Virus record (IMG/VR): IMGVR_UViG_3300027848_000043
Coordinates: 1 to 43,744 of that record
Length of the DNA: 43,744 nucleotides
Strand: one strand, 5' to 3'
Origin: a virus
A program made the position numbers and the translations under genes. The notes below the pieces were generated by a model. That model saw only the letters and a program-made list of their open reading frames with translations. It did not search any database and was not told where the DNA came from. This document shows, piece by piece, positions 344 to 22,739 of the stretch (positions within the stretch are counted from its first letter, which is position 1; each line of letters opens with the position of its first letter).

Positions 344-415
344 AGGCTGGGGCAGGAATCGAACCTGCGACCTTCACGTTTTCACCATGACGCTCTACCG
401 CTGAGCTACCCAGCC
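344..415 (-). tRNA. tRNA-Phe (GAA anticodon)
   Basis: Read on the - strand, the sequence folds as a full cloverleaf. The 7-bp acceptor GGCTGGG/CCCAGCC is perfect, the D arm is GCTC/GAGC, and the anticodon stem TCATG/CGTGA (one T-G pair) encloses loop GTGAAAA with anticodon GAA after U33. The T arm is GCAGG/CCTGC with loop TTCGATT. No CCA is encoded, and the base at the discriminator position is U, whereas bacterial tRNA-Phe normally has A. It lies between a small membrane protein gene and csrA in the same orientation. Confidence 0.93.
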
Positions 416-11181: not shown

Positions 11182-11210
11182 ACGTTACGTAATTTTTTCG
11201 GAAGTGTCAA
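11182..11210 (-). promoter_or_regulatory. sigma70-type promoter of the AT-rich gene
   Basis: TTGACA-N17-TAACGT, identical with the promoter at 10129-10157 across 32 bp. The -35 box overlaps the stop codon of the 11207-11596 gene. Confidence 0.75.
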
Positions 11211-15809: not shown

Positions 15810-17825
15810 TTGAAAGATCTGTGGCATAACACCATGGCAGACAGCGTTAGGTCAACTTGTGAAACACTAAGGTTAATCGGCGTCCCTGATCGGGATGTCG
15901 CTGTGTACAGCACCCTGACGCCGAAGAACACGGTCCTGAACATGCGATTCAGGAAATTGCTACTGGAGCTTGGATACGATAGCCAGGAAAACGCTCGCGA
16001 AATCTGGATGCTGTGTGCCCGCGATCCTTTGTTCTTCATCAACACGTTCTGCTATTTGATGGAGACGCGAGAGCGTCAGGAATGGAACACGAACAATCGT
16101 TACGGCTCAAACAAAATCATTCCGTTCATCACACGCAAGTATCAGGATGACCTGATCCTGAAATGCGTTGAACACCTGGGCCGGAACGACATTATCATTC
16201 CGAAATCACGCGAGACAGGAATCTCATGGATTATCGCGGGGGCGCTTACGTCGTGGGATTTCATCTTTCACGATCAGACGCACATCGGGTTCGTCTCGAA
16301 GGATTTGTTGTCGGCGAACAACCCTGACGACCCGGATGCGTTGTTTTCCAAATTAGAGTTCCTGTTGAGGAGATTACCGTTTTGGTTATTTTCACCGGCA
16401 GACTACGAACGGAACATTTCGAAGAACACTTTGAAAAACATTAGAAACGGATCGTCCATAACGGCGTATGCGGCGAAGGGAGACATCGCGCGTGGAGGCC
16501 GCAAAGCGTATCTGTTAATGGATGAGTTTCACTTCTTCGAGCATGGCGAAGATTACGCGGCCATGGACTCGACAGTCCACGTTACGCCATGCCGCGTGTT
16601 TGTCTCAACGGCGAACCGCGATCGCGGTATGGCAGGGGCGTTCTATGACGTGATGACAGACGACAGCCGCAACGGGGTCCGGGTTGTCGTGGACTGGAAA
16701 GACGACGAAGACAAGCGCCGGGGGCTTTACCACGGAAAGACGAAGTTAGGTACTGACACGTACCATCTTGCGATTGACGATGTTGAATTCTGGAGCAAGT
16801 TTTCAAACAACGACGGGACATACAAACATCCAAATAAACCCGGTCAGAACTACCCGTTTATTGTCGATGATAGGATACGCTCGCTCTATTACGACCACGT
16901 CTGGATGCGTCCTGGCTCAACGCCGCAATCTATCGCCGCAGAACTCGACAGAAACTTCGGGGGAGCGACTGCGCAGATCTTCAATCCGCAGCTTCTGGCA
17001 AGTGCGATGGAGAAGACGAAGCCGCCGTTAATGCAAGGGGATATCGTTAGGAATCCATCGAAGCAGAATGAGTGGATGTTCGAAAGCCTGATGCTTGGCG
17101 GACTGACGTCGTTGTGGTGTTTGCTGGTAGATGGAAGGCCACCAAAAGGCGAGTATTCGATTGGAGCCGACGTGGCAGCAGGCACGGGCGGGGGATGGTC
17201 GAGTTACTCAGTTCTGGAGGTCATTGAGAGAAATTCCGGAGATCATGTTTTCGAGTGGCGGTCGAATCGCCTTGATCCAATTCAATTTGGCGAGTTGGCA
17301 GTCTGGGTTTGTAAATGGTTCTGGAACGGGTATCTTGTGCCGGAAGTAAACGGCCCCCTGGGCCAATTGTTCATCAATAAAGTCGTGAAGGATTTGAGAT
17401 ACGGGAATGTCTACCACGAGTTAAAAGCGAGAATCGCGTATCGACAGGTGACTGAGAAAATCGGCTACGTCAATAACGACAGAGGGCTTGCGTTGTTGAA
17501 AAACATGGAATCAGCAGTCCGGGATAAGCGAGTTCAACTGAACTCATTATTGGCCCTAAAGGAGTGCGGCCGCTATTTTATGAAGAACGGCAGGTTGGTT
17601 CACTCGGCTGCAGAAGTGACTGACGACGGCGCTGGAATGGGCCTGGCGCACGGCGATGCGGCAATTGCATTGGGTTGTTCTGTACTGGGCATCGACGGCT
17701 ATCAGGTGAAGCGGGAATCTGATGTGAAAAACGAAGCTCCGCACGGGTCATTCCAGTGGCGACGCGAGCAGTATGAGAAGTCGATGAAGAAGATCGGTCA
17801 GAAGTCTTACTGGAAACCGGAGTGA
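15810..17825 (+). CDS. terL: terminase large subunit, 671 aa
   Basis: The ATPase domain shows a Walker A-type loop IPKSRETGISW (residues about 130-140), Walker B LLMDEFHFF (about 235) and the coupling motif STANRD. The nuclease domain has an acidic triad in SIGADVAAG (about 453), VPEVNG (about 511) and HGDAAIALG (about 613). The enzyme pumps DNA into the prohead through the portal and cuts the concatemer. The start is taken as TTG at 15810, which keeps the CGGGATAAAGTAACT leader shared with the previous gene; ATG at 15834 is the alternative and lacks a clear ribosome binding site. The portal gene follows after 3 nt. Confidence 0.93.
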   Translation: MKDLWHNTMADSVRSTCETLRLIGVPDRDVAVYSTLTPKNTVLNMRFRKLLLELGYDSQENAREIWMLCARDPLFFINTFCYLMETRERQEWNTNNRYGSNKIIPFITRKYQDDLILKCVEHLGRNDIIIPKSRETGISWIIAGALTSWDFIFHDQTHIGFVSKDLLSANNPDDPDALFSKLEFLLRRLPFWLFSPADYERNISKNTLKNIRNGSSITAYAAKGDIARGGRKAYLLMDEFHFFEHGEDYAAMDSTVHVTPCRVFVSTANRDRGMAGAFYDVMTDDSRNGVRVVVDWKDDEDKRRGLYHGKTKLGTDTYHLAIDDVEFWSKFSNNDGTYKHPNKPGQNYPFIVDDRIRSLYYDHVWMRPGSTPQSIAAELDRNFGGATAQIFNPQLLASAMEKTKPPLMQGDIVRNPSKQNEWMFESLMLGGLTSLWCLLVDGRPPKGEYSIGADVAAGTGGGWSSYSVLEVIERNSGDHVFEWRSNRLDPIQFGELAVWVCKWFWNGYLVPEVNGPLGQLFINKVVKDLRYGNVYHELKARIAYRQVTEKIGYVNNDRGLALLKNMESAVRDKRVQLNSLLALKECGRYFMKNGRLVHSAAEVTDDGAGMGLAHGDAAIALGCSVLGIDGYQVKRESDVKNEAPHGSFQWRREQYEKSMKKIGQKSYWKPE

Positions 17826-17828
17826 CAA

Positions 17829-19577
17829 ATGGACCATAAACGTTTCATGGCCCTTAAAAACGCCATTGAGCCAAACCTGAAACAACTGAAGCCGTTCAGG
17901 GATGAACTGGCAGAAGCCATGAAAGCATACACCGGCCCGCACTACGGCCAGCAGAATGGCGACGATCGCCCAATCAACATGCTGCAATTGTCGGTCGAGT
18001 CATTGCTACAGCAGCTCTCTTCGAGAAACCCGCAGGTGTTGTGTTTCACGCACCGGCCGGAACTTCAGTCTTCAGCCATTGAGCTGGAGCTCGCAATGAA
18101 CCAGGCGCTCAAGAACATGAAGTTTGAGGCTGAACACCGACTATGGGTTCTGTCTGCCATTTTTCTTGTTGGCATCATGGAAGTCGGTCTCGACATTATA
18201 GACTCGCCGGAAATCGACGGCGAGATATTGCCGATCACAGAGGTGTTCTGCGAAGCGATCATGTTCGACGACTTCGTGTTCGACACAACCGCCACGAAAT
18301 GGGATCGCCGTCAGGTCTCGTTCTGGGGGCACAAGTATCGAATGTCGCTCGCTGAAGCAAAGAAAGATCTCACGTTCAATAAGGAGGCGAGAGGACAACT
18401 GACGGCTATCGAAAAGATGAGTGCCGGCCGTGACGGGATGTCCAACATCTCAAAGCCTGACGGCAATGCGAACACCGATTCATTTACTGAAATGTGCGAG
18501 ATCTGGCAGATCTTCGTGCCTGAAGAGAACGAGATTGTAACCTTCTCGGTCGATGGCGGCGACAGACCATTAAAGACCGTTAAATGGGAGGGTCCAAAGC
18601 ATGGTCCGTATCACATGTTCGGATTCAATCCTGTTCTCAACAACATCATGCCGCTTTCGCCCATCGCCAACTGGATCGCATTGGATGACCTTGAAAACAA
18701 GCTCTACACGAAACTCGGTGAGCAGGCATCCCGGCAGAAGACAATCGGCATCACTGACTTACAGGGAGTCACTGACGGCCAGTCCATCATCAAGACGAGT
18801 GACGGCGATGTGATCGCGGTTGGCAATCCGAACGCATTCAGGGAAGCCAGCTTCGGGGGTGTCAATCAGCAGACGCTGGGATTCGCTCTGAACGTGAAGT
18901 CGATGGCTGATTTTATGATGGGCAACCTTTCGCAACAAATGGGGCTCGGGGCGTCTGCCTCCACGTTGGGGCAGGAGCAGATGATTAAGCAGGCAGCGAA
19001 CGTGCGTATTGAATCAATGCAAGGGGTTTTGCTGTCTGCAACCGAGGCGGTCCTTGAAGACGTCGCGTTCTACCTGCATCATCATCCGACGCAGGAATTT
19101 GACCTGACGCGGGAAATACCAGGCACGGACATGAAGCTGCCAATCAAGTGGCCTCGCCGTGATAATGGATTCGGACAAGAAATGGATGTCCGTACCGGCG
19201 ATTACGAACAGTATGCAATCTCGATTGAGCCATACTCAATGACGTCCGTCTCTCCAGGTCAACGCGCTGAGCTTCTGCGGGCGATTTGGCGAGAGGATAT
19301 TATGCCATCAATTCAACTTGGCATTCAGCCAGACGTTTACGTATATTTGTCAAAACTAGCGAAGTATTACGATCTTCCTGAGCTCACCCAGATAGTTCCA
19401 ATGATACAGGAAGCATTGCCACCGCAAGAGAAGTTCGGTGGCGGTGGCCAAGCTCCGAAACCTGGCAAACCAAACGGAAACTACACGCGAGAAAACGTTA
19501 GTCGAGGCATGACAGATCGTGGAATGGACCAGCAGCGCGAAATGATGGCCCTCGCAGGTGGCGGCCAGGAATCCTAG
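17829..19577 (+). CDS. portal (head-tail connector) protein, 582 aa
   Basis: Position directly after terminase, length, and a mixed helical layout with a long central part fit a podovirus-type portal. The N-terminal half contains LQLSVESLLQQLSSRNPQV and the middle a membrane-like helix (LWVLSAIFLVGIMEVGLDII). A Gly/Ser-rich ASASTLGQEQMIKQAANVRI region precedes the conserved C-terminal crown part. Twelve copies would form the ring through which DNA passes. The C-terminal 50 residues are Gly/Pro-rich and likely disordered. Confidence 0.85.
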   Translation: MDHKRFMALKNAIEPNLKQLKPFRDELAEAMKAYTGPHYGQQNGDDRPINMLQLSVESLLQQLSSRNPQVLCFTHRPELQSSAIELELAMNQALKNMKFEAEHRLWVLSAIFLVGIMEVGLDIIDSPEIDGEILPITEVFCEAIMFDDFVFDTTATKWDRRQVSFWGHKYRMSLAEAKKDLTFNKEARGQLTAIEKMSAGRDGMSNISKPDGNANTDSFTEMCEIWQIFVPEENEIVTFSVDGGDRPLKTVKWEGPKHGPYHMFGFNPVLNNIMPLSPIANWIALDDLENKLYTKLGEQASRQKTIGITDLQGVTDGQSIIKTSDGDVIAVGNPNAFREASFGGVNQQTLGFALNVKSMADFMMGNLSQQMGLGASASTLGQEQMIKQAANVRIESMQGVLLSATEAVLEDVAFYLHHHPTQEFDLTREIPGTDMKLPIKWPRRDNGFGQEMDVRTGDYEQYAISIEPYSMTSVSPGQRAELLRAIWREDIMPSIQLGIQPDVYVYLSKLAKYYDLPELTQIVPMIQEALPPQEKFGGGGQAPKPGKPNGNYTRENVSRGMTDRGMDQQREMMALAGGGQES

Positions 19578-19597
19578 TTGACTTAAAGGAAGATTTC

Positions 19598-20002
19598 ATG
19601 CCGGTATACGAATTCAAAACTGATGATGGCGAATTGGTTGATTTATCCATGTCGTTCAAAGATCACGATCGCCGCGTGAAGAACGGCCAGATCAAACTTT
19701 CCGACGGTCGCACGGCCAAGACTTATTGGGGAGGAATGTCGTCAATCTCGACGGTTCCTTCTAACTACCCAATGGTCTCTTCTGCGGCCGGTGTTCATCC
19801 GGGACAAATCAAAGAGCACATGGATCACCTGAGATCGCAGGGTTGTGGCCAGGTGAATCACACAAAGGACGGAGACATTATCTTCGAATCCAAGGGGCAG
19901 AGAAAGAAGGTTCTCGAAACGCTTGGCATGTTTGACAGGCAGGGCGGGTATTCAGACCCCCAACCAAAAATAAGGACTGCAAGTTGCCGAAAGTATCGGT
20001 AA
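19598..20002 (+). CDS. hypothetical protein, 134 aa
   Basis: The N-terminus MPVYEFKTDDGELVDLSMSF recalls the start of FmdB-like zinc ribbons (MPIYEY) but there are no Cys pairs, so no zinc site is expected. The C-terminal part has HPGQIKEHMDHLRSQGCGQV and a basic end. AAGGAAG precedes the ATG. It follows the portal gene closely and may be a small virion or assembly protein. Not recognised with certainty. Confidence 0.75.
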   Translation: MPVYEFKTDDGELVDLSMSFKDHDRRVKNGQIKLSDGRTAKTYWGGMSSISTVPSNYPMVSSAAGVHPGQIKEHMDHLRSQGCGQVNHTKDGDIIFESKGQRKKVLETLGMFDRQGGYSDPQPKIRTASCRKYR

Positions 20003-20042
20003 CCAAATCTTTAGTCACAAATTTGATAAATGAAGAGCGAAA

Positions 20043-20363
20043 ATGACCACAGTAATCTTATCAATAAACGTGTCTCAGGCACCCGACAAGGATGACATCA
20101 GGGCGATGGAATACATCGTCAGCAAAGAGAACATTCGCAGAAAAGAATCTAATAAACCCATGCTTCCTGAATCAACGAAGCGTGAATTAAAAGAGTCGTA
20201 CGAGATTTGTCTTGCAGGCATTATGACAGACGCTCACCTGTCATACATTCAGCAGGCATTTGATGTCGTTCAGTCGGAAGATGGATTTAAGGGATTGCGG
20301 AAATTTTGGGCTGACTCAACGCCCGAACAACGGTCACAGGCGATTTCAGCACTTGGCGGATAA
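20043..20363 (+). CDS. hypothetical protein, 106 aa
   Basis: A helical, charged protein (ENIRRKESNKPMLPESTKRE, then FKGLRKFWADSTPEQR). It begins MTTVILSINVSQAP, a beta strand-like start. It lies 40 nt after the previous gene and just before the promoter and structured RNA that lead the scaffold and capsid genes. No family recognised. Confidence 0.7.
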   Translation: MTTVILSINVSQAPDKDDIRAMEYIVSKENIRRKESNKPMLPESTKRELKESYEICLAGIMTDAHLSYIQQAFDVVQSEDGFKGLRKFWADSTPEQRSQAISALGG

Positions 20364-20372
20364 TCAAATCGC

Positions 20373-20401
20373 TTGACAGGTTTTCTTTTTCTTCATAATG
20401 T
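20373..20401 (+). promoter_or_regulatory. sigma70 promoter of the capsid module
   Basis: TTGACA and TAATGT are 17 bp apart, near consensus at both boxes, with a T-rich spacer. Transcription would start near 20408 and run straight into the structured RNA. Confidence 0.85.
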
Positions 20402-20407
20402 TTCGTA

Positions 20408-20564
20408 AATAATACAACGGGAGCCGGGCTGATTAGCTCGGTAACAGGCAGACGGACATAGCGAGATCAGTGGAATAGCTACCACTCCTCGCAGAAGATG
20501 TCCACAGAACATCACGGCCCTCTGTGGGAGCCGAGTTGAAAAACTCGCGCTCCCATTTTCTTTT
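20408..20564 (+). ncRNA. structured leader or small RNA of about 155 nt
   Basis: Between a strong promoter and an intrinsic terminator the sequence folds into nested stems. Hairpin 1 is CCGGGCT-GATT-AGCTCGG (20424-20441). Hairpin 2 has three stacked stems, GGACAT/ATGTCC, GCGAG/CTCGC and AGTGG/CCACT (20454-20503). Hairpin 3 is ACAGA/TCTGT (20504-20525). The terminator is last. GGGAGC at 20419-20424 repeats the 5' arm of the terminator, so it could pair with GCTCCC at 20549-20554 and act as antiterminator. No ORF of note lies within. It is either a stand-alone small RNA or a switch controlling the scaffold-capsid genes. Confidence 0.75.
20526..20564 (+). terminator. intrinsic terminator of the structured RNA
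   Basis: GGGAGC plus CGAGTT pair with AACTCG and GCTCCC around a GAAA tetraloop, with one bulged C, and are followed by ATTTTCTTTT. The ribosome binding site AAGGG of the scaffold-like gene begins directly after it. Confidence 0.85.
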
Positions 20565-20577
20565 AAGGGTCTGATTG

Positions 20578-21591
20578 ATGAGTCTGGAAACCGAAGGCAA
20601 TTCTGATGTCGCTTCTGATGTCGCTTCTGAAAGCGTTTCCAGCAGCGAGTCTACGCCTGTTTCCACCAGCGAGTATTCCGCTGTTGATCCCGGTTATGAT
20701 TCCAGCCCTTCATCAGAAATCGATGATCTTTCGGCACTGAAAGCCGAAAACGAAACAAAGAAAACTCCGTCCGAGACGTCAGACGATGCCAGCGAAGACA
20801 CTGAAAGTGTTGAAACTGAAGAGGAGACTGAAACCCAGTCAACTGTTGAATCCGCTGAGAATATCATCAGCGATGAACTGTTGGATCGAGCTACTGAGCT
20901 TGGTTACACACTCGGTGAGATCAAGGGCTTCACCAGCGAGAAATCACTGGAAAAGGAAGTCGCGCGAGTCGAGAAGCTACAACAGCGACTGCAGGCACGA
21001 CAGTCAAGCAAAGAGTCTCCCGCCAAAGATGATCAAACTCCAGCTGAAGAAGTTGAGGTTGAACCAGATTGGGCAGAGATGATTGAGCTGGGGCACGACC
21101 CAGATGTCGTCGGATTGCAGGAGAAAATGTGGCAACGTGCTACCAGAGCAGAAGCAATGGTCAAGCAGGTTTTCCAAGCCGATCGAGACCGTGCGTGGGC
21201 AGCGCACTGTGAGCGGTTTGACGATTCGATCAACAAACTCGGCGAAGAATTCAAGTCACTGCTTGGCAATGGCCGACGCGGAGATCTGATGAAGACATCG
21301 CCGGAAGCTGTCGCTAATCGGGACCAAGTCTTTCAAAAGATGGAGGTTCTGATGAACGGCTATCAGTCCGGAGGTAAGCCCATGCCGTCCGAAGATGAAC
21401 TTATTCAAGAGGCCGTTCAAGCCTCTTTCTGGAAACAAACCAAAACATTCGCCCGCAAAGAGCTTACAAGCGACATCAAGAAGGCTGGTTCACAAGCGTT
21501 GTCGAGACCTCGTTCCTCAGGGACCAAAGCCCTGACAGGGCAGGCATCGGCAACAGCTAAAGAAAAAGAATTCTGGAAAAGTCACTCGTAG
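20578..21591 (+). CDS. putative scaffolding protein, 337 aa
   Basis: Residues 1-120 are acidic, Ser/Thr/Glu-rich and disordered. Residues about 120-180 hold a charged helical stretch (EKSLEKEVARVEKLQQRLQA), and the C-terminal part is basic (TFARKELTSDIKKAGSQALS). This composition, and the place directly before the major capsid gene, fits phage scaffolding proteins, which shape the prohead and leave before or during packaging. The start is ATG with AAGGG 8 nt upstream, right after the terminator of the structured RNA. Sequence likeness to a specific family was not seen. Confidence 0.7.
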   Translation: MSLETEGNSDVASDVASESVSSSESTPVSTSEYSAVDPGYDSSPSSEIDDLSALKAENETKKTPSETSDDASEDTESVETEEETETQSTVESAENIISDELLDRATELGYTLGEIKGFTSEKSLEKEVARVEKLQQRLQARQSSKESPAKDDQTPAEEVEVEPDWAEMIELGHDPDVVGLQEKMWQRATRAEAMVKQVFQADRDRAWAAHCERFDDSINKLGEEFKSLLGNGRRGDLMKTSPEAVANRDQVFQKMEVLMNGYQSGGKPMPSEDELIQEAVQASFWKQTKTFARKELTSDIKKAGSQALSRPRSSGTKALTGQASATAKEKEFWKSHS

Positions 21592-21632
21592 GTTTTGCTG
21601 GCTAAACAAACCATAAAGAAAGACAGAGTACC

Positions 21633-22739
21633 ATGCCTGGAGTTGTCACACCACAAGACGTAGCCGATTTGGTCCAAAGCATTTTGCCGGACTTGGATCG
21701 AATGAACTGGGAGCAAATCGCCCAGAATCTCGTCGATTATGAAATGATGAGTCACTGGCTGAAAGACGACAAGATCGTCTTCGGTGACGGGATCGCAATC
21801 CGTAAAAATCTGTTGACCCGGTTGTCTGGCGCTGCGTCGCACACGGGAATGACGGACATTGATGACGTGGATATTCCAGACCTGATGGATGATATCCAGG
21901 TTCCGTGGCGTCATGCTCAGTCCAAGTGGGCATACCACTACCAGACTGACATCCTAATGAATCGTGGCAAGTCCACGATCAACGACACTGTCAAGCCTCG
22001 CCGACACGTCGCGATGCTCGACTTGGCGGAAGAATTGGAGGCCAAGGCGTGGCAGGTTCCGAATTCGTCTGACCGATTGAATCCATACGGCTTGCCGTAT
22101 TGGATTGTGTTTAACGCGACGACTGGCTTCACGGGTGGATACCCGACTGGACCAGACGGCGTCATGCACGCGACAATCGCAGGCTTGAACCTGACTGATT
22201 CGCCGAAGTTCCGAAACTACTCGGCACAGTACGCGGCCGTAAACAAGCAGGATCTCCTGCCGAAAATGCGAACCGCACTCCGCGCGACAAACTTCAAGTC
22301 ACCCGTAACGAAGGGGGACATGAGCACTCCGCGCGCGAACGATCGCCGTTACTACATGAACGAAGTCACGACAAGTGCCTTTGAAAATGTGGGCGAAGCT
22401 CAGAACGAGAATCTCGGTCGTGACATTGCGCCGTATACCGCTGGCGTCGGTAACAGCCATGGTGGCGTCCAGGATACCGACGGCACCCTGACTTTCAAAA
22501 AGAACCCGCTGGTTTATGTCCCGCAACTGGATGACACGACCGTGTACACGGCTGCGACAGATCCGATTTACCAGGTTGATCACGCGGTGTTCTATCCGTA
22601 CTGCTTGAAGGGTGACTACCTTCGTGAAACGGGGCCGACACCAGCCCCGAATCAACACAACTATTATAGGGTGTTTGTTGATTTAACCTATAATATCCTC
22701 TGTACGAATCGTCGCCGATGTGCGGTGTTCGCGAAGTAA
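21633..22739 (+). CDS. major capsid protein candidate, 368 aa
   Basis: The protein has the size and position of a major capsid protein, after a scaffold-like gene and before a strong terminator. It contains SGAASHTGMTDIDDVDIPD, a helical LDLAEELEAKAWQVP spine-like stretch and YYMNEVTTSAFENVGEAQNE. I believe it has the HK97-type fold, but this is from composition and context, not a clear motif. The start has only a weak AAAGA site. The terminator at 22748-22785 limits transcription beyond it, consistent with high expression of this gene. Confidence 0.78.
   Translation: MPGVVTPQDVADLVQSILPDLDRMNWEQIAQNLVDYEMMSHWLKDDKIVFGDGIAIRKNLLTRLSGAASHTGMTDIDDVDIPDLMDDIQVPWRHAQSKWAYHYQTDILMNRGKSTINDTVKPRRHVAMLDLAEELEAKAWQVPNSSDRLNPYGLPYWIVFNATTGFTGGYPTGPDGVMHATIAGLNLTDSPKFRNYSAQYAAVNKQDLLPKMRTALRATNFKSPVTKGDMSTPRANDRRYYMNEVTTSAFENVGEAQNENLGRDIAPYTAGVGNSHGGVQDTDGTLTFKKNPLVYVPQLDDTTVYTAATDPIYQVDHAVFYPYCLKGDYLRETGPTPAPNQHNYYRVFVDLTYNILCTNRRRCAVFAK

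Follow-up and report, generated by a model that had tools for sequence, protein, structure and literature searches.

Just upstream of the scaffold and capsid genes of a virus genome lies an RNA of about 145 bases that is precisely folded. Thirty-one elements, mostly without sequence similarity to one another, share its first hairpin (H1), its second hairpin (H2), an H-type pseudoknot and an intrinsic terminator. By sequence comparison they constitute a structured RNA family absent from Rfam, and the element gives the impression of a hitherto undescribed device, common to many phages, that controls the assembly of virions. We tentatively regard it as a transcription attenuator in the leader of virion structural genes, acting in cis, an assignment in which our confidence falls a little below even. 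Phages with unrelated capsid proteins have it ahead of their structural genes; if it is a switch, it would be a portable regulatory module and a widespread RNA-level control over the timing and amount of virion protein. It is also a candidate case of DNA phages using RNA dimerization to control genes, and the lineages concerned yielded no cultured relative here.

A structured RNA within the head-gene region

The window, by which we mean the entire 43,744-base virus record, carries in order TerL, a portal-like gene and two small genes, then, beyond a gap, a scaffold-like gene and a capsid-like gene. PHROG and Pfam searches gave no match for the scaffold, capsid or portal of the window (17829-22739), and a search of a named phage collection found no DNA, capsid or RNA match to it. 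All capsid relatives in bacterial genomes carrying a phylum-level or lower name are in Planctomycetota bins, and the lineage appears to infect members of this phylum. A tRNA-Phe gene is located at 344-415 (minus strand), near the contig end.

The structured RNA is housed in the gap between the small genes and the scaffold-like gene (20364-20577). The original prediction, made from the letters of this DNA, placed here about 200 bp with no gene and, immediately 5′ of the scaffold and capsid genes, a structured RNA that includes an intrinsic terminator, and both statements are borne out. No sense ORF of at least 60 amino acids is present between 20363 and 20575, and every piece that had been described is in the sequence, with TTGACA for the promoter, GGGAGCC at 20419 and repeated near 20526 within the arm of the terminator, GCTCCC at 20549-20554, and the GAAA-capped hairpin with its U-tract. 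The features of the region are as follows.

15810-17825: TerL gene (phrog_2 match)
17829-19577: portal-like gene
20373..20401, plus strand: promoter-like sequence, with TTGACA at 20373-20378, a 17-nt spacer and TAATGT at 20396-20401
20418..20429, plus strand: segment 1 (CGGGAGCCGGGC), which repeats the 5′ arm of the terminator at the 5′ end and can pair with the terminator 3′ arm
20423..20442, plus strand: hairpin H1 (segments 1 and 2) of the MFE fold, resembling terminator hairpin H4
20446..20449, plus strand: AGGC, 5′ strand of a possible short helix S3, with partner GCCC at 20517-20520
20461..20492, plus strand: hairpin H2, GCGAG/CUCGC and AGUGG/CCACU, supported by covariation
20474-20481, plus strand: H2 loop of 8 nt, AAUAGCUA, within which UAGCUA is self-complementary
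20497-20501 with 20509-20513, plus strand: pseudoknot helix S1, GAUGU:ACAUC, supported by covariation and permutation
20502-20507 with 20522-20527, plus strand: pseudoknot helix S2, CCACAG:CUGUGG, supported by covariation
20524..20564, plus strand: intrinsic-terminator hairpin H4 of 14 bp, with GAAA loop at 20538-20541 and U-tract at 20556-20564
20565-20569, plus strand: AAGGG, a ribosome-binding-like sequence, followed by the ATG of the scaffold-like gene at 20578-20580
20578-21591, plus strand: scaffold-like protein gene, directly 3′ of the RNA element, with a Ser/Glu-rich N-terminus
21633-22739, plus strand: major-capsid-like protein gene, the query that retrieved the relatives

The fold of the element reaches -68.5 kcal/mol, compared to -47.4 +/- 3.7 kcal/mol for shuffled versions (z = -5.65), and none of 200 shuffles is equally stable. 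A generic terminator scan overlooked H4 and a promoter scan returned none, both because of the stem/loop and hexamer rules that these scans apply. Rfam searches of the window at gathering and at permissive thresholds gave only chance matches of snoRNA type.

Relatives of the element in other phages

Searching with the capsid protein retrieved 18 contigs, and an alignment of ten capsids brought in 78 loci, while a scan with the portal protein found three close relatives only. One homologue alone, locus L004 (capsid 80% identical), has an RNA that blastn or nhmmer can align, and it carries compensating changes in H1 and H4. Other relatives lack detectable nucleotide similarity at this place, and in the same gap they have a hairpin with a AGUAGCUA, UGAUCA or similar loop together with a strong terminator. 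Additional elements in unrelated phages were located by scans for GGGAGTAGCTACCC, for the same pattern with a conserved downstream AGA, and for a UAAUUA loop; in elements fetched by loop pattern, conservation of the loop is not evidence. The UAAUUA element of L177 is far from the match that fetched its locus, and the AGUAGCUA element of L283 is not the one that was matched. Most matches of a 14-mer loop pattern were rejected as chance or int-alpA-like (see below).

In plain MAFFT alignments the variable helices came out in the wrong place. A covariance model (R1) was therefore built on an alignment registered by hand and padded with N, and its pairs comprise H2, S2 and H4 only, with S1 left out. 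R1 recovers 31 elements, 17 of them from loci outside the training set. The window is included with an E-value of 0.014 (R1 E-values are rough), and its modest score of 16.5 bits is due to an extra stem in its H2. Elsewhere in the window nothing comes near the element, and weaker matches were not accepted, nor were candidate second copies in L177 (218-274) and L016 (3041-3129). Full Rfam scans of the window and its relatives gave no match to any non-tRNA family, and a literature search that covered few subscription papers returned no description of such an element.

The distribution of the family is patchy. L015, whose capsid is 86% identical to that of the window, gives no R1 match. The gap of this locus (L015:2484-2700) is occupied by a different long hairpin. 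Among 392 Planctomycetota genomes there were three matches, of which only that in the phage-like contig L101 is real; those in L234 and L235 were rejected as host-type sequence in which the fold is absent.

A pseudoknot supported by covariation

Ordinary folding misses the pseudoknot. In the first alignment, column statistics revealed pairing between the segment 3′ of H2 and the following hairpin's loop, and an H-type pseudoknot can be written out in all 19 elements first assembled, each of which beats its own shuffles (P <= 0.027). For example, L041 has GUUGG:CCAAC and CCUAA:UUAGG, and L073 has GAUAG:CUAUC and CCUCAC:GUGAAGG. The loop of S2 contains a conserved CG(N)GCC segment. An outer stem, GGACAU:AUGUCC, with analogous “P2” stems was rejected as the main fold; the pseudoknot overlaps these stems and explains the covariation, and it is the pseudoknot rather than the outer stem that the relatives keep. 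This outer stem belongs to the middle hairpin with three stacked stems that was originally proposed and that competes with the pseudoknot.

The hand-registered 14-member alignment has double-sided changes at 22 of 25 pairs and a pseudoknot helix that is 100% paired, although its strands were picked by eye and it is therefore not an independent test. In the 31 automatically aligned elements, S1 is paired in all except one, and none of 20,000 permutations does as well, a result that is repeated when only the 17 elements outside the model are considered. H2, S2 and H4 are paired in 96% of 587 cells, with double-sided changes at 19 of 20 pairs and a covariation score of 0.80 versus 0.20 for shuffles. 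Such changes affect six of seven pairs of S2 and all nine modelled pairs of H4 across the 31 elements. Compensating changes in related phages, which had been suggested as a check on the structure, are abundant, and covariation in these alignments lends overwhelming support to the fold. The pattern of substitutions indicates that the pseudoknot, H2 and the mirrored ends described below are under intense selection. S3 is a plausible helix, its GGC:GCC being conserved and compensated by eye in L112 and L042, but the swap test is not significant and the helix is not separable from sequence conservation.

Mirrored ends and alternative folds

Segments 1 and 3 of the element are alike, as are segments 2 and 4. 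Because H1 resembles H4 of the same RNA, the four segments can form either 1:2 with 3:4 or 1:4 with 2:3. Pairing of 1:4 within the same element reaches -22.7 kcal/mol compared to -16.2 kcal/mol when strands are swapped between elements, and none of 20,000 permutations is as strong. The corresponding test of 2:3, in which segment 2 pairs with the 5′ arm of H4, likewise yields none in 20,000. The original prediction had noted the 5′ copy of the terminator arm and seen in it an antiterminator/terminator switch. Retention of this copy in sequence-divergent relatives upholds the alternative pairing; the switch itself is what we infer.

Predicted energies, in which the pseudoknot is not counted, place the open and closed folds 0.5 kcal/mol apart in the window, and in approximately half of 27 elements the difference is at most 1.5 of about -60 kcal/mol. 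Some elements are strongly one-sided, with L021 open by 10.6 and L241 closed by 26 kcal/mol. The closed rod extends to 27 uninterrupted base pairs in L283 and about 30 in L101.

In a subgroup formed by L014, L045, L046 and L169 the terminator arm has no 5′ copy. In these elements CCAAAAGAA upstream is complementary, by eye, to UUCUUUUGG after the terminator, and this pairing, which is able to close the domain across the U-tract, covaries in length (six A and six U in L169). Closure in this other manner argues that joining of the ends matters, and it cautions that termination is perhaps not the whole story.

A self-complementary loop in H2

The H2 loop is commonly self-complementary. Eleven of 14 distinct loops have a self-complementary stretch of at least 4 nt (5.1 expected, P about 0.001) and six have a 6-nt palindrome (0.85 expected, P 5e-5), although these statistics are indicative only, the loops being related by descent. 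The window has UAGCUA, and GUCGAC, UGAUCA and UAAUUA are found elsewhere; the three non-palindromic loops are UUCGCUA, GUCGCUC and GUUGCU.

A comparable arrangement is known from the kissing hairpin of the HIV-1 DIS, in which the apical loop carries a 6-nt palindrome flanked by purines (PMC7357161). The H2 loop resembles this design by analogy only; a single palindromic loop favours RNA dimers, which are putative here. It is doubtful, but conceivable, that two copies of the leader kiss via this loop and so tip the ends from the terminated to the read-through state. Such a device would sense abundance, switching on capsid and tail genes as late transcripts grow in number. The two leaders of one phage carry different palindromes, UAGCUA before the capsid gene and UAAUUA before the tail-tube gene, which would keep the circuits separate.

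Promoters and neighboring genes

A promoter-like sequence is indeed present upstream of the RNA as first proposed, but the better -10 box is TAATGT at a spacing of 17 nt rather than CATAAT at 15. TTGACA-N17-TA[AC][CT]GT is found at the same place in L021 (=L003), L022 (=L004) and L019, giving four elements with the window, and is absent from the other 27 of the 31. The full pattern occurs only six times in 667 kb on both strands. A unit running from promoter to terminator thus describes the window without being general for the family. Elsewhere in the window, TTGACA-N17-TANNGT is found only at 11210 and 10157 (minus strand), near the starts of minus-strand genes, and may represent a promoter type of the phage itself.

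The distance from the upstream stop codon to the element is 3-22 nt in at least 14 relatives and 33-80 nt in others (54 nt in the window). A tRNA gene (L041:4279-4352) ends 22 nt upstream of the element in L041, and the two may share a transcript. Wherever the downstream frame is readable, the element has the same direction as the next gene, and where an ATG or GTG is resolved the start codon follows by 6-33 nt, mostly about 20. In nearly all elements a U-tract is kept directly after the stem.

The next genes encode major head proteins (phrog_1005, phrog_212, phrog_10 and gpT-like), head decoration, major tail, TerL or TerS proteins, with scaffold plus capsid in the lineage of the window and no clear assignment in a few cases such as L138 and L112. 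Two diverged elements occur in L283, one ahead of the capsid gene and the other ahead of the gene for the major tail (tail-tube) protein.

Possible functions of the element

The variety of next genes and the two copies in one phage argue for a cis-acting leader rather than a packaging RNA, and probably rather than a free small RNA; a cis role explains why L283 has one copy before each of two structural genes. Attenuation is suggested by the element's own terminator, by the constant spacing of terminator and ribosome-binding sequence, by the fixed spacing to the start codon, and by the copies before different structural genes. Comparison among relatives is what establishes the fold, its placement, the mirrored ends and the near-equal energies, whereas regulated termination, its trigger and dimerization are things that we infer.

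In the mechanism we propose, nascent RNA that folds as 1:2 with 3:4 would terminate before the gene. If instead the 5′ segments capture the terminator strands, first as 2:3 and later as 1:4, polymerase would enter the structural gene, and 1:4 would enclose the pseudoknot domain in a closed rod. The balance would be tipped as the pseudoknot junction folds, perhaps with two leaders kissing via the palindromic loop. Alternatively, a ribosome that covers segment 1 while at the upstream stop codon might do so in many relatives, but purely ribosome-coupled attenuation was rejected as the general mechanism, as the window itself and several of its relatives lack an ORF near segment 1. Several observations count against attenuation. 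The 1:4 helix of the closed form also abuts the U-tract, so termination might still be possible there. Moreover, the family is patchy (as in L015), some fold energies are one-sided, the 5′ copy is missing from a subgroup, and switches of this kind do not usually have a dimerizing loop.

Post-transcriptional processing or stability is less likely as the explanation, though the most probable of the rivals. RNase III, for instance, would cut the closed stem, which reaches 27-30 bp, or 5′-to-3′ decay would be blocked by the pseudoknot. The outcome would be abundant capsid and tail mRNAs with protected 5′ ends, while the terminator hairpin would guard the 3′ end of the upstream mRNA. Long rods in L283 and L101 are consistent with this account, as are the placement of the element inside operons before the most highly expressed structural genes and the lack of a promoter for most elements. 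However, processing has no need of the U-tract that nearly all elements retain, and the rods of others (L021) are interrupted or unfavourable.

We consider it rather improbable that the element is a free small RNA that merely has its gene in the head module, runs from promoter to terminator and acts in trans as a regulator or assembly factor, possibly as a dimer. The promoters in the window, L021, L022 and L019, the complete terminator, the palindromes among 11 of 14 distinct loop types, and the tRNA gene upstream in L041 would all suit an independent transcript. Yet most elements are promoterless, the short distance to the start codon is fixed even though the structural genes differ, and each diverged copy in L283 precedes its own gene. 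A free small RNA had been offered initially as an alternative, and it is less likely than a leader.

The compact, aptamer-like pseudoknot adjoining a terminator and the small number of unpaired letters conserved near the junction (GGC, GA, CGC) raise the prospect of a ligand-binding riboswitch, in which the junction and pseudoknot would provide a pocket for a metabolite or ion signalling late infection. This prospect is poor, as no Rfam riboswitch was matched in the window or its relatives, there are hardly any invariant unpaired letters, unlike in usual pockets, and the palindromic loop is left unexplained.

Still less probable is a strong terminator without regulation and with co-inherited decorative structure. 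Termination is the sole activity recognisable from the sequence, but the intense selection on the pseudoknot, H2 and the mirrored ends does not fit, and an unregulated terminator before a capsid gene with no intervening promoter would silence that gene.

The phi29 pRNA has an Rfam family; no Rfam match was obtained here. This pRNA uses two different, non-palindromic, complementary loops to build head-to-tail rings (PMC7357161). The element resembles it in size, in nearness to head genes and in a likely RNA-RNA loop contact, but a packaging role, raised originally by analogy to this RNA, is very improbable because loop logic, gene context and fold all differ, the single H2 loop being usually self-complementary with no non-palindromic loop pair, the next genes being many and including tail-tube genes, and the carriers encoding an ordinary TerL and in one case TerS.

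Comparison with known regulatory RNAs

As in attenuators of the trp/his type, an intrinsic terminator lies just before the controlled gene, and its strands can pair alternatively with upstream segments (1:2 with 3:4 versus 2:3); many relatives also have an upstream stop codon near segment 1. Unlike those attenuators, the element carries a pseudoknot and a hairpin with a self-complementary loop between segments 2 and 3, its segments 1 and 4 are complementary as well, the window has no leader peptide, and the genes controlled would be phage structural genes.

The lambda pR′-6S RNA-tR′ module consists of a promoter, a short RNA of about 150-200 nt and a terminator, before the late genes. Although this order recalls that in the window, most relatives have no promoter, and we know of no conserved fold of this kind for lambda 6S RNA. 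The put RNA of phage HK022, of about 70 nt with two stem-loops, acts on polymerase and distant terminators (PMC9378689). It is likewise a cis-acting nascent phage RNA of similar size connected with terminators, but our element has another fold, a built-in terminator and a location before late structural genes.

A further look-alike is int-alpA RNA (RF02996), which is also phage-associated and, by eye, has an outer helix, a first hairpin with a AGUAGCUA loop in the fetched copies, a second hairpin whose loop pairs downstream, and a U-tract. However, int-alpA RNA lacks the mirrored terminator hairpin, and members of the present family precede structural or packaging genes rather than lying near int and alpA. 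No family member reaches the RF02996 gathering score of 35.8 bits, and L201 is unmatched at E-values up to 10. The only RF02996 match, L128:1423-1499, is a different RNA found through the shared loop. Other int-alpA-like loop matches (L109, L185, L151, L122 and more) also have AGUAGCUA in the first hairpin. By eye the overall topology of these RNAs is similar to that of the leader family, whose S3 outer helix is not significant in the swap test.

A possible sister class of RNAs, for which Rfam gave no match, is represented by L277:3771-3857, L286:2451-2532 (minus strand) and L289:5824-5909 (minus strand). These RNAs are located before portal or capsid genes and combine a AGUAAUUAA hairpin and a terminator with a GGCGA...UCGCC pairing that closes beyond the U-tract.
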